Shown piece after piece: positions 389 to 8,452 of a stretch of DNA of 13,233 nucleotides (the first letter of the stretch is position 1; the number at the start of each line of letters is the position of its first letter). A program made the position numbers and the translations under genes. The notes under the pieces are model-generated. The model did not search any database and was not told where the DNA came from. It was given only the letters and a program-made list of their open reading frames with translations. This stretch comes from Lutispora sp. (GTDB taxonomy: Bacteria; Bacillota; Clostridia; Lutisporales; Lutisporaceae): contig JAUQXG010000504.1 in assembly GCA_030834765.1 (NCBI GenBank), positions 1 through 13,233 of the forward strand, written 5' to 3'.

Positions 389-511
389 CTATACAGAATC
401 AAACCTAAATATAATCTTCTCTGAGCCATCTTCAGCTTTTGCTGGAAAATCTTCATATATTCCAGATGTATATTCAAACCTTATGATGAAATTAAAATTA
501 GTATTTGACAG
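389..511 (-). pseudogene. Possible remnant of a gene 3' end
   Basis: The 291 bp between the GrpB gene and the MerR gene contain no intact gene. On the minus strand an open stretch of about 40 codons ends at a TAG at 389-391 and reads like protein in part, for example RFEYTSGIYEDFP followed by EKIIFRFDSV. It has no start codon with a ribosome binding site, and its upstream end runs into the -35 element of the MerR promoter. It could be the residue of a deleted gene or chance coding potential. I do not recognise a family. Confidence 0.2.
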
Positions 512-535
512 TTACGTTACGTAATCAATTATAAT
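505..535 (+). promoter_or_regulatory. MerR-type promoter with 19-bp spacer for the 579 gene
   Basis: A perfect TTGACA (505-510) and a perfect TATAAT (530-535) are separated by 19 bp. MerR-family regulators characteristically act on promoters with overlong 19-20 bp spacers by twisting the DNA. The spacer holds TTACGTTACGTAA (512-524), with TTACG and CGTAA as inverted half-sites and TTACGTAA (517-524) as a perfect 8-bp palindrome. The sigma-A elements and spacing are seen directly; autoregulation by the gene product is inferred from the family. Confidence 0.75.
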
Positions 536-539
536 AAAA

Positions 540-557
540 TTATGAAGTACTTCATAA
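540..557. promoter_or_regulatory. 18-bp perfect palindrome at the predicted transcription start
   Basis: TTATGAAGTACTTCATAA is a perfect 18-bp palindrome beginning 5 bp after the -10 hexamer, so it covers the expected start of transcription of the MerR gene. This is a classic place for a repressor operator. It is separate from the dyad in the promoter spacer. As RNA it could only form a tight, loop-poor hairpin, so a DNA operator is more likely. Its binding protein is unknown. Confidence 0.45.
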
Positions 558-578
558 AAGCTGAAATGAGGAATTCCA

Positions 579-1286
579 ATGAAAATAAATCAACTGGCAC
601 AAAAGTATCAAATTTCTATACGCACAATTAGATATTATGAAGAAATAGGCCTATTACACTCAAGTAGAGATGCTGCAAACATTCGTGAGTTTAATCCACT
701 TCAGATAGAGCGACTCGAGTTAATACTTTTCTTCAAAAATCTTGGTCTAAAGCTATATCAAATCAAAAATATACTAAAGAATTTGGATATTAATGTAATA
801 GAATCCTTATTTCAAAAAAGAATGTCTGATATAAGCCATCAAATAAACAGATTAAATAATGAAAAACAAATATTAATTACTGTTCTCACTATGCTTAACT
901 CTAAAGACCATAGCAAAATAAATGTTAAAGAATTTATCAAAGAACAAATATATTTCCAAAAAAATAATGAAAGGATGCTTTATATGAATAATTATAAAAA
1001 TAATATTATTATTGAAATTGGAGAAAACCTAATCCCATTAGCAAATAAACAAGTGAATGGAATATTAATTGATTCAATCAAAAAAATGCGTTTAGAGTTA
1101 GAAAAACAGTATGACCTAAAATTGGATTTAATACGAGTCACCGATAATCCAGACCTACTTTCTCTAAATGAATATCGAATTTTAAAGGATGGGATACAAA
1201 TAATCCATAAAACAATTATCGGCAACGATAGTTCTAAGCAAAATGATCAGATAATAGCTGATTTAAAAGCGGTAATACTTAACTAA
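579..1286 (+). CDS. MerR-family regulator with FlhA-like C-terminal domain
   Basis: A 235-residue transcription regulator. Residues 1-70 form the MerR winged helix-turn-helix, with the hallmark RTIRYYEEIGLL at 15-26. Residues about 72-110 look like the dimerising coiled coil. The C-terminal part is not a usual multidrug or metal sensor: residues 143-212 resemble the first part of the FlhA/FHIPEP cytoplasmic domain, with EIGENLIPL, then SIKKMRLEL, IRVTDN and NEYRILKDG in the family order. After that only a short tail (about 213-235) is left, much shorter than FlhA. There is no membrane segment and no flagellar gene nearby. The ATG has AGGA 7 nt upstream. The promoter has a MerR-type 19-bp spacer, which supports autoregulation. 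The DNA-binding part is certain. The FlhA-like identification rests on remembered motif order without an alignment, and its ligand or partner is unknown. Confidence 0.9.
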   Translation: MKINQLAQKYQISIRTIRYYEEIGLLHSSRDAANIREFNPLQIERLELILFFKNLGLKLYQIKNILKNLDINVIESLFQKRMSDISHQINRLNNEKQILITVLTMLNSKDHSKINVKEFIKEQIYFQKNNERMLYMNNYKNNIIIEIGENLIPLANKQVNGILIDSIKKMRLELEKQYDLKLDLIRVTDNPDLLSLNEYRILKDGIQIIHKTIIGNDSSKQNDQIIADLKAVILN

Positions 1287-5634: not shown

Positions 5635-6871
5635 TTTTAGTCCATTCCTCTTCTATAGCGGGAACAAATTTTGCTGGTATTTCAGGGACTCTGTGCTGTA
5701 TAAGCTCACTTTGATCTAATGTCGCTTCTCCTAAATCTAGGCTCTCCAATGCTTTCTTTTCATCTTCACTAAGTTTCTCTGTATCAAAAACAGGAAGATC
5801 TCCCCAGTTATTAGGATCAAGTTTTGATATTTGAGCTTCAAAGCCTGTCATGAAATCAGCAACCGCCATAGCTCCTGCTTTATTTGAAGCATTGTCTGGT
5901 ATTGCTAAAAAGCTAGTATTGCTTATGGTTCCTTCTTCTATTATAAATGTCTTTGTAGTCTTTGGGAATATACCATTTATCACATCACCTGCAGGCTTCA
6001 GTGGATTATAAGTCATTGACATCCATACTTCTCCATCTGCAAACATACTGTCAAGCTGCCCTATATTGGCTGGGTATGTTTTACCTTCTCTCCACAGATA
6101 AGGCTTTAAGCTATTCAAGTATTCCCATGTAGGTGCAAGCGTTGATGCTAAATCCTCTTCCTTCATATTCATAAACTGTTCATAACCGCCAGATTTCATA
6201 TACATTATATTTCTAACAAATGCACTGCCTGTAAAATCAGGTGGTGCTGGATATGTGAATTTTCCAGGATTTTGCTTAATAAATGTTTCTAACTCCGCCA
6301 GATTTTTTGGAGGATTCGGTACTTTGCTGCTATCATATATAAGCACCAATTGAGCTCTTCCGTAAGGTGTTTCATAACCCTCTATGGGATAACCAAAATC
6401 ATAATTATTCTCTGCCGCATCCTTATTTATATATTTAGCATAATTAGGCAGCTTGTCTGTAAACGGTCCATAAAGAAGCCCATTTTCTTTCGCTGTATAG
6501 AAGTTTTCTCCGTTAATCCATAATAAATCGATACTTCCATCTTTTTTGCCTGCAGATTTTTCATTGGCAAGCTTGTTCACAAAATCTGCTGCATCCATAG
6601 GAACTCTATTTAAAGTAACTCCATATTTACTTTTTACTTCTCCTGCCACAAATTCATCAACCCACTTATTTATTCTTGTGTCTCCACCCCACATATAGAA
6701 GTTCACCGTTGTACCTTTAGTAGATTGTACTGATTCTTCCCAAGTATTGTTTGATGTGTTTTGAACATTTTCAGTTGGTTTATTGCTACAGCCAGTTACC
6801 GCGAAGGCTAGCATCAGCACTAATAATCCCATCAATATTATTGTTCTTTTCTCTAGTAGTCTTTTAATCAT
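5615..6871 (-). CDS. ynjB: YnjB-like ABC transporter solute-binding lipoprotein
   Basis: A 418-residue extracytoplasmic binding protein. The signal peptide has a basic start, a hydrophobic core and a lipobox AVTGC with the lipidated Cys at residue 28. The mature part has a Ser/Thr/Asn-rich linker, then a two-lobed extracellular solute-binding fold. Motifs GYETPYGRAQLVLIYD, NPPKNLAELE and NPGKFTYPAPP match what I remember of E. coli YnjB and its relatives, which are of unknown substrate. A longer reading from an ATG at 6889 is possible, but TTGGAGGAAAATC sits inside that extension, ideally placed for the ATG at 6871. That start overlaps the stop of the TVP38 gene by 8 bp (ATGATTAA), which indicates coupled translation. 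I am sure of a binding lipoprotein and fairly sure of the YnjB relationship. Confidence 0.88.
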   Translation of the reverse strand: MIKRLLEKRTIILMGLLVLMLAFAVTGCSNKPTENVQNTSNNTWEESVQSTKGTTVNFYMWGGDTRINKWVDEFVAGEVKSKYGVTLNRVPMDAADFVNKLANEKSAGKKDGSIDLLWINGENFYTAKENGLLYGPFTDKLPNYAKYINKDAAENNYDFGYPIEGYETPYGRAQLVLIYDSSKVPNPPKNLAELETFIKQNPGKFTYPAPPDFTGSAFVRNIMYMKSGGYEQFMNMKEEDLASTLAPTWEYLNSLKPYLWREGKTYPANIGQLDSMFADGEVWMSMTYNPLKPAGDVINGIFPKTTKTFIIEEGTISNTSFLAIPDNASNKAGAMAVADFMTGFEAQISKLDPNNWGDLPVFDTEKLSEDEKKALESLDLGEATLDQSELIQHRVPEIPAKFVPAIEEEWTKNVAKDK

Positions 6872-7532
6872 GATTTTCCTCCAATACATTCTTCATAATT
6901 TTGCTTTTTGATAGCTTGTTTTTTAGTAAGTATGAAAAAATACATAGTGCCGCTAGTATAAGCAAGGCAAACAAGAACTCTATGGACCAAATATCGATAA
7001 TCTTGTCCCCTATATTTGTATAAACCAACACACCAGGTATTACTCCAACAATTGTTGCTAAAATAAAATCTCTATATTTTATTTTGGAAAGCCCTGCTCC
7101 ATAGCTTATCAGGTCAAAAGGAATCATCGGTATGAGTCTTAACAATAAAATGATTACAAATCCTCTTTTTTCCACTCCATCTTCAAATAGCTCTGCTTTA
7201 TGCTTTATGAGCTTTTCTACCACATTTCTTCCAAAGAATCTGCAAATGCAAAAAGCTAAGGTAGCTCCGCCACAAGCGCCGATAATCGTATATATAGCTC
7301 CCTCATATACTCCAAACGACAATCCTCCAGCCACAGCAATTACTCCATCAGGAAAAAGAGTTACTGCCGCGCATGTGAACATAAGGATATACATGATAGG
7401 AGCGAAAACCCCAAAGGATATTATATAATTTTTAATCCCTTCCACTGAGAAACTTTTGAACATATTTGATGAATAGCAACAAGCTGCAATTGCTATCAAT
7501 ACAAGAGCCATTATTATATATTTCTTCTTCAA
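6864..7532 (-). CDS. TVP38/TMEM64 (DedA-superfamily) membrane protein, YdjX/YdjZ-like
   Basis: A 222-residue integral membrane protein of the VTT/SNARE-associated family (PF09335 type), first gene of the transporter operon. Visible features are an N-terminal hydrophobic segment (6-18), the conserved AVAGGLSFG region (67-75), a re-entrant-like GACGGATLAF stretch followed by FFGR (99-102), and RLIPMIPFDLISYGAG at 132-147, the second hallmark. The superfamily is connected with membrane lipid homeostasis and scrambling; the role of the bacterial TVP38 branch is not settled. The start codon is TTG, preceded by TTGGAG at about 9 nt. It overlaps the binding-protein gene by 8 bp, so the two are made together. 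E. coli ydjX and ydjZ are TVP38 genes beside ynjBCD, which supports a real link with this transporter class. Confidence 0.9.
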   Translation of the reverse strand: MKKKYIIMALVLIAIAACCYSSNMFKSFSVEGIKNYIISFGVFAPIMYILMFTCAAVTLFPDGVIAVAGGLSFGVYEGAIYTIIGACGGATLAFCICRFFGRNVVEKLIKHKAELFEDGVEKRGFVIILLLRLIPMIPFDLISYGAGLSKIKYRDFILATIVGVIPGVLVYTNIGDKIIDIWSIEFLFALLILAALCIFSYLLKNKLSKSKIMKNVLEENHD

Positions 7533-7701: not shown

Positions 7702-7735
7702 CTTGTATGTAAATATAAAACTGGGGGTAAATCAT

Positions 7736-8452
7736 ATGCAAAACATAAAAAAATCTACATTAATCAAGCTTGGTATTGTATTAGCATGTGCGGCAATCTA
7801 TCTTTTTGTACAACCTATACAGGATTCCGTAAATAGTGCATTACTCATGCTAAAAAAGATTGATGTTGCAGCCGCAAAAGAATATATTCTTTCATTCGGC
7901 ATCTGGGCACCTATTGTCTCTTTTCTGCTAATGGTTTTGCAATCCATCGTTGCACCATTGCCAGCTTTCATCATTACCTTCGCTAATGCTGGACTTTTTG
8001 GCTGGGTAAAAGGTGCGATTCTATCCTGGTCAAGTGCCATGGCTGGAGCTGTCCTTTGTTTCTTTATAGCTAAGCTCTATGGAAGAGCTGTCGTAGAAAA
8101 ACTAACAAGTAAATTTGCTCTTGAGAGTATTGATATATTCTTTGAGAAATATGGTAAGTTTGCAATTTTAATTGCTAGACTACTTCCTTTTATTTCCTTT
8201 GATATTGTAAGCTATGCAGCAGGTCTTACTTCAATGAGTTTCTGGTCTTTCTTCTGGGCAACAGGCCTTGGACAACTACCTGCAACTATCGTGTACTCCT
8301 ATGTAGGTAGTATGTTGGTTGGAAGTGTAAGAACTTTCGTAATGGGACTTTTAATTTTATTCTCCCTAAGTATTCTTATTGTCATGTTAAAACAAATATG
8401 GAATGAGAAAAATAAAAAAGTAGAGAAAGCTAAACTAGAAAATTCAAAGTAA
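7736..8452 (+). CDS. Second TVP38/TMEM64-family membrane protein
   Basis: A 238-residue membrane protein paralogous to the TVP38 protein at the head of the divergent operon. It has an N-terminal hydrophobic segment (11-25), then PLPAF and ANAGLFGW (74-90), AMAGAVLCFFIAKLYGR (101-117) and ARLLPFISFDIVSYAAGL (147-164), the same signature as RLIPMIPFDLISYGAG in the first copy. The C-terminal tail is lysine-rich and probably cytoplasmic. An in-frame ATG at 7703 exists, but it lies only 2 bp after the -10 element and has no ribosome binding site, whereas GGGGGT precedes the ATG at 7736. The gene stands alone between its own promoter and a strong terminator. Having two TVP38 proteins beside YnjBCD-like genes repeats the E. 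coli ydjX/ydjZ situation. The biochemical role is unknown. Confidence 0.88.
   Translation: MQNIKKSTLIKLGIVLACAAIYLFVQPIQDSVNSALLMLKKIDVAAAKEYILSFGIWAPIVSFLLMVLQSIVAPLPAFIITFANAGLFGWVKGAILSWSSAMAGAVLCFFIAKLYGRAVVEKLTSKFALESIDIFFEKYGKFAILIARLLPFISFDIVSYAAGLTSMSFWSFFWATGLGQLPATIVYSYVGSMLVGSVRTFVMGLLILFSLSILIVMLKQIWNEKNKKVEKAKLENSK

Follow-up and report, generated by a model that had tools for sequence, protein, structure and literature searches.

In regulators of the MerR class the sensor lies C-terminal to a long helix, and MerR activators act on promoters with spacers of 19–20 bp which contain a pseudo-palindrome; many of these activators control efflux pumps (excerpts of PMC8113463). TipA has been described as a minimal autoregulated drug system (excerpt of PMC7762955). 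In the flagellar export-gate protein FlhA, the linker is in one state bound to D1 and D3 of the subunit next to it, and the docking dimple involves Leu-438, Ile-440, Pro-442, Asp-456, Phe-459, Leu-461, Val-482, Val-487, and Thr-490 (excerpts of PMC10965912). Furthermore, FlgS of Helicobacter pylori is a regulator that binds FlhA (PMC6978683); in the excerpts of that article MerR and FHIPEP both occur, unconnected. Searches of an open-access library gave no report of a MerR-FlhA or HTH-FlhA fusion.

The window, i.e., the whole stretch of 13,233 nucleotides analysed here, contains such a fusion gene (Table 1). The ORF is complete and intact, and no Rfam match was found in the window. Its product is best read as an autoregulated one-component regulator of the MerR class, in which a domesticated FlhA D1 domain would serve as ligand-responsive effector module; the chances that this reading is correct are about even.

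Table 1. Features of the regulator gene, its upstream region and its product, with positions in the window.
Feature	Position	Strand	Basis
MerR-type promoter	505..535	+	sequence; pattern match, 0 mismatches
TTGACA	505-510	+	
19-bp spacer GTTACGTTACGTAATCAAT with half-sites	511-529	+	
TATAAT	530-535	+	
Perfect 18-bp palindrome TTATGAAGTACTTCATAA, near expected transcription start	540..557	+	just behind -10 element
GAGGA, ribosome-binding-like	568..572	+	sequence
MerR-FlhA(D1) regulator gene, 235 aa	579..1286	+	ATG at 579, stop ends 1286
MerR winged helix-turn-helix, residues 1-68	579..782	+	Pfam MerR_1; structural alignment
Long helix, residues 71-108, expected dimerisation coiled coil	789..902	+	predicted structure
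Conserved linker EFIKEQIYFQKNNERM..., residues 116-136	924..986	+	family alignment
FlhA D1 domain, residues 140-235	996..1283	+	Pfam, structural alignment, profile searches
GENLI, counterpart of FlhA GYXLI switch motif	1020-1034	+	
RVTDN, counterpart of FlhA RIRDN	1134-1148	+	
D1 closing helix	1230-1280	+	

The N-terminal half is an ordinary MerR helix-turn-helix domain, as the earlier note had it. Pfam MerR_1 was matched at E 2.2e-15 and was also found in 43 of 43 family members, and this part of the predicted structure could be aligned to the N-terminal parts of TipAL, MtaN, CadR, and CueR. The long helix is present in both structure models and aligns with MerR structures. By analogy, the regulator would be dimeric. 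In the linker, which was modelled with low confidence, E122, Q123, Y125, and E131 are each kept in 40 of the 43 members.

In the C-terminal half, the stretches EIGENLIPL, SIKKMRLEL, IRVTDN, and NEYRILKDG were all found in the order given by the earlier note, and its proposal that an FlhA-related domain takes the effector's place in a MerR protein was confirmed by Pfam, profile and fold evidence. Residues 118–214 match Pfam FHIPEP (PF00771) over positions 309–403 of the 657 positions of the profile (E 4.2e-7). The score of the window protein alone, 29.3 bits, is barely above the curated cut-off of 29.1, several relatives score lower than this cut-off, and the NCBIfam FlhA model gave E 6e-8 and 31.4 bits, its full-length cut-off of 772 being far higher. 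Such scores could be taken to mean that the likeness to FlhA arose by chance, or that the C-terminal part is in fact a known MerR effector domain. The single-sequence match is indeed thin alone; it is the matches of the relatives that settle the FlhA identity, as FHIPEP was matched by each of the 43 aligned relatives in a one-by-one scan (E up to 0.01). None of the 78 lower-scoring MerR proteins listed in the second of two database searches for relatives carries an FHIPEP label.

In addition, a profile of 16 C-terminal pieces was compared with 177,635 PDB sequences. The best match was FlhA of Bacillus subtilis (E 6.3e-15), the match reaching about residue 429 of FlhA. Of the 16 sequences listed, 15 were FlhA or the homologous CdsV, and the remaining one was unrelated (E 0.035). 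A whole-protein profile found the full-length FlhA of the window's own genome through positions 128–214 (E 5.9e-13). The profile search proposed in the earlier note gave FlhA above background: set against 48 FlhA sequences of the searched genomes in a profile-profile comparison, the family reached a probability of 98.8 over 82 columns. No GyrI-like family was among the Pfam matches of the window protein at E up to 10. A chance likeness or a known MerR effector domain is therefore scarcely credible, and the homology to FlhA D1, together with the predicted fold, is close to certain. The TipA effector domain gave no Pfam match in the window protein, and matches to the NCBIfam models of metal and redox MerR proteins were far below cut-off.

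A comparison with cytoplasmic structures of FlhA, which the earlier note had suggested as well, matched the D1 fold with 95 of 139 residues aligned and about 44 not matched; the structural aligner reports end points only. The last 20 or so residues, taken before as a remnant of the domain, correspond to the helix which closes D1 in FlhA; D1 is hence complete, and the missing part seems to be D2. Judged by fold and length, the module is a whole D1 short of only about 44 residues, and the description as a minimal sub-domain had to be given up. That the missing FlhA stretch corresponds to D2 is suggested by the extent of the structural alignment, the sequence match to about residue 429 and the short connector. 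The stretch of residues 206–225 has 20 residues in 42 of the 43 members and 22 in the other one, without room for D2. Neither D2–D4 nor the N-terminal membrane domain of FlhA is present in the 235-aa protein; the loss of the latter had been noted before and agrees with the profile positions covered by the FHIPEP match. In the absence of these domains, a nonameric ring like that of the type III export apparatus is not to be expected.

The same residue is conserved at ≥70% in both families in 14 of the 82 aligned columns (E131, E146, G148, P153, A155, G161, I167, R171, I185, R186, D189, N190, L194, and Y199). G148 is invariant (43/43) and is the counterpart of FlhA Gly-368 in the GYXLI motif (excerpt of PMC9431611). 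In the profile-profile alignment, E131 falls on a conserved Glu of the FlhA linker, and its distance to the glycine, counted by hand, is that of Salmonella Glu-351. At fifteen columns where FlhA is ≥90% conserved, no residue reaches a majority in the MerR family; the GYXLI Tyr is among them, as are several charged residues. At four of the fifteen (156, 197, 203, and 205) the commonest residue is that of FlhA. Most of the docking-dimple residues fall within the stretch which seems to be missing, going by the excerpts of PMC10965912. This speaks against the idea of the earlier note that a gate-docking fold binds a secretion chaperone here; the module may still be a small-molecule or protein-interaction sensor. 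The D1 module appears to be domesticated, with the chaperone-docking D2 and several FlhA-conserved residues lost; its fold is kept, its switch perhaps kept, and its docking site not kept.

Many residues common to both families could be core residues, and the linker, modelled with low confidence, is conserved at least as strongly as the domain. These points are compatible with a purely structural D1, e.g., a dimerisation or stability domain, with sensing via the linker or none at all. Such a role is doubtful, as the sensors of MerR regulators sit C-terminal to the long helix and an XRE-type regulator, described below, has the same domain.

The MerR proteins with the same C-terminal part form a family, which the earlier note had considered worth searching for. 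In total, 43 proteins with MerR and FHIPEP make-up were aligned, 23 from a first and 20 from a second database search, including proteins of Brassicibacter mesophilus and of Clostridium species; three further members (P0130–P0132) were found later and are outside the alignment. A tree built from 92 D1 sequences separates the 43 of MerR proteins (support 87/65; recovered in 88% of 200 bootstrap trees) from 48 of FlhA (support 98/95), each set being a group of its own; the columns used are few, 27 of the 89 inner branches are open, and several end branches are long. A 203-aa piece of a family member (P0015) is entered by its source as “flagellar biosynthesis component FlhA”, which goes back to the D1 match alone. 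By their FHIPEP match, such regulators are generally liable to be named FlhA.

The family is rare. Full-length matches were found in at least two of 391 genomes of the window's class, with at most 7 candidates scored per genome, and in at least 10 of 206 genomes of the C. oryzae family, with at most 13 scored. In the class search at least five of the 391 genomes exceeded the limit, two with full-length matches and three through residues 1–122 at most. When contigs were scanned with the alignment of the whole protein, most hits were ordinary MerR genes, and of the 80 kept loci that of C. oryzae (L003) alone matches through residue 201. Matching records numbered 67 among plasmids and 3 among phages, none of them covering >80% of the query.

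A metagenomic protein of 236 aa (P0133) combines an XRE-type helix-turn-helix with FlhA D1 (HTH_3, E 6.3e-14; FHIPEP, E 1.8e-12). Like the window protein it has no room for D2; it differs in its HTH family, in weakly matching the part of FlhA that follows D1 and in being a single example. No second protein of this kind was found among 398 genomes of the phylum, where five exceeded the limit through the HTH part only. In the D1 tree it stands beside FlhA on a very long branch, with unsure placement, and it is perhaps an independent recruitment of D1. From the two HTH types one could conclude that D1 without D2 is a portable sensor which still recognises the ring or linker of the export gate and couples the state of the gate to transcription, which is quite unlikely.

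The autoregulation assumed in the preferred reading is based on the gene's own promoter, in which a 19-bp spacer and half-sites are present as in MerR target promoters. With up to two mismatches allowed, 11 of 12 carriers have a like promoter in front of the gene, in one of them (G555) about 336 bp away from it; in G428 the pattern is absent, the spacer nevertheless having 19 bp. The pattern was written after viewing these 12 upstream regions, and at up to two mismatches it occurs mildly above a reversed control in the 12 genomes (48 vs. 32 sites). The four sites with no mismatch all lie in front of the regulator gene. Of ten control sites, at which the pattern occurs elsewhere, six precede other MerR genes, two an unnamed gene (one of these with a MerR gene behind it), one an MFS gene of the own genome and one an unrelated gene. 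A regulon search by this pattern in the 12 genomes was given up; no second target could be assigned to the regulator. In the genome of the window, a gene for an MFS-type exporter lies behind a MerR-type promoter with a 19-bp spacer and one mismatch (L145, G000:C414:8-38). Near position 3890194 of contig C1 in G537, close to the contig end, a second copy of the promoter region is followed by a copy of the gene start with several small indels (L151), which is probably an assembly artefact.

The palindrome downstream of the promoter is separate from the spacer site, and a consensus like TAAGAAGTACTTCTTA was found at the expected start of the gene and of several relatives. It is a possible second operator. 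The best 16-bp dyad has 7 or 8 of 8 pairs in six of the 12 carriers (shuffle rate 0.022 each), two of which, G533 and G537, are nearly identical in sequence; in the other six it has 4 to 6 pairs. None of ten other promoters of the same type shows a dyad of 7–8 pairs, the maximum being 5. A search for TATGAAGTACTTCATA in the own genome returned one exact site, that in the window, and 50 sites with up to three mismatches vs. 63 in the reversed control, so that no regulon can be read from the palindrome.

The genes beside the regulator, which the earlier note had proposed to survey, are not conserved among the carriers. An exporter is found nearby in four of the 12 (raw count): G407 has an overlapping MFS gene that runs in the same direction as the regulator gene; in G394 both a convergent MFS gene and, upstream, a gene of the CAT family lie next to it; G481 has a convergent MFS gene with a small ORF in between; and the convergent gene in G428 encodes an ABC ATPase. 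No adjacent exporter was found in the window. Other neighbours encode GrpB, DUF2007, PC4, YdjM, HIRAN or beta-lactamase-like proteins or are without Pfam match (Pfam was run on 20 neighbourhood proteins, 18 of them flanking the gene). The window also contains two divergent genes for membrane proteins alike by eye (6864–7532, minus; 7703–8452, plus), the second of which matches VTT_dom.

In line with the earlier note, no flagellar gene was recognised among the ORFs of the window, most of which were judged by eye and four by Pfam; the same holds for the regulator's surroundings in the carriers, with most ORFs judged by eye. This bears on a further reading, namely a flagellar-state sensor whose D1 docks on the FlhA ring or on D1 partners (FlhA linker, D3, FliJ), so that transcription would report assembly or activity of the export gate. 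It could draw on the long FlhA present in all 12 carriers tested, on the invariant GYXLI glycine, on the linker Glu shared with FlhA, on the contacts of the FlhA linker to the neighbouring D1 and D3, and on FlgS as a precedent of an FlhA-binding regulator. FlhA, however, also occurs in most genomes without the regulator: an FlhA-family match was found in 178 of 206 genomes of the C. oryzae family, a background against which 12 of 12 does not argue for a flagellar link, and this co-occurrence was set aside as evidence. In the window's class, FHIPEP was matched in 148 of 391 genomes. In G449 about 22 kb of a single contig lie between the regulator gene and flhA, and in G407, G537, and G585 the two share a contig at a distance of about 0.2 Mb or more; linkage was not counted as evidence, as chance allows the 22 kb. 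In addition, most of the docking dimple is missing along with D2, and 15 FlhA-conserved columns have no majority residue. A flagellar role thus gains no support from the neighbours or from co-occurrence; the flagellar-state sensor is weaker than the ligand-sensor reading and unlikely. In G431, G460, and G295 the sole FHIPEP match is weak (E 9.8e-16, 2.4e-9, and 1.3e-4, respectively); these are either FlhA pieces or D1 fusions in genomes without FlhA.

For the ligand-responsive regulator, whose mechanism is held with about even confidence, the following course can be assumed. The regulator would bind the 19-bp spacer of its own promoter, the over-long spacer with internal half-sites being of the type which MerR activators remodel, distorting the DNA when an effector binds. 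Upon binding a small molecule or peptide, D1 would change its conformation, this change may be relayed to the coiled coil through the conserved linker and the invariant glycine of what was once the GYXLI switch, and the regulator would then activate its own gene. The output would be autoregulation and, in some species, control of an adjoining exporter, overlapping and co-directional in one carrier, as in BmrR-like and TipA-like systems. The sensing of a small molecule or peptide is suggested by where the domain lies in the protein, by the type of promoter and by the minority of exporter neighbours. An argument against this mechanism is that the invariant residues may be needed for nothing but the fold.

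With this protein, the MerR class gains an effector domain of new origin; the protein also shows that one part of the flagellar export gate, D1, is able to exist by itself once D2 is removed. If a ligand of the regulator's D1 is found, the question arises whether D1 of FlhA has an overlooked binding site.

Compared with FlhA itself, the window protein shares the D1 sequence profile, the fold, the closing helix, the GYXLI glycine and the RxxDN motif; it differs in being fused to a MerR helix-turn-helix, and in lacking the membrane part, D2, D3, and D4; in its family, other residues also stand in place of the GYXLI Tyr and of several conserved charged residues. CueR, ZntR, and SoxR have C-terminal cysteine ligands, whereas the window protein has no cysteine among its 235 residues, which speaks against Cys-based metal or redox sensing. 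With TipA-type regulators it has in common the MerR helix-turn-helix, an autoregulation which is only probable here, and the frequent lack of a dedicated adjoining target; it differs by the lack of a TipA effector domain and of any sign of a drug-binding short form. Finally, the N-terminal helix-turn-helix, the long helix and the promoter with a 19-bp spacer are those of the BmrR, EcmrR, and Mta type, the effector of which is GyrI-like (excerpt of PMC8113463), whereas in the window protein its place is taken by FlhA D1.
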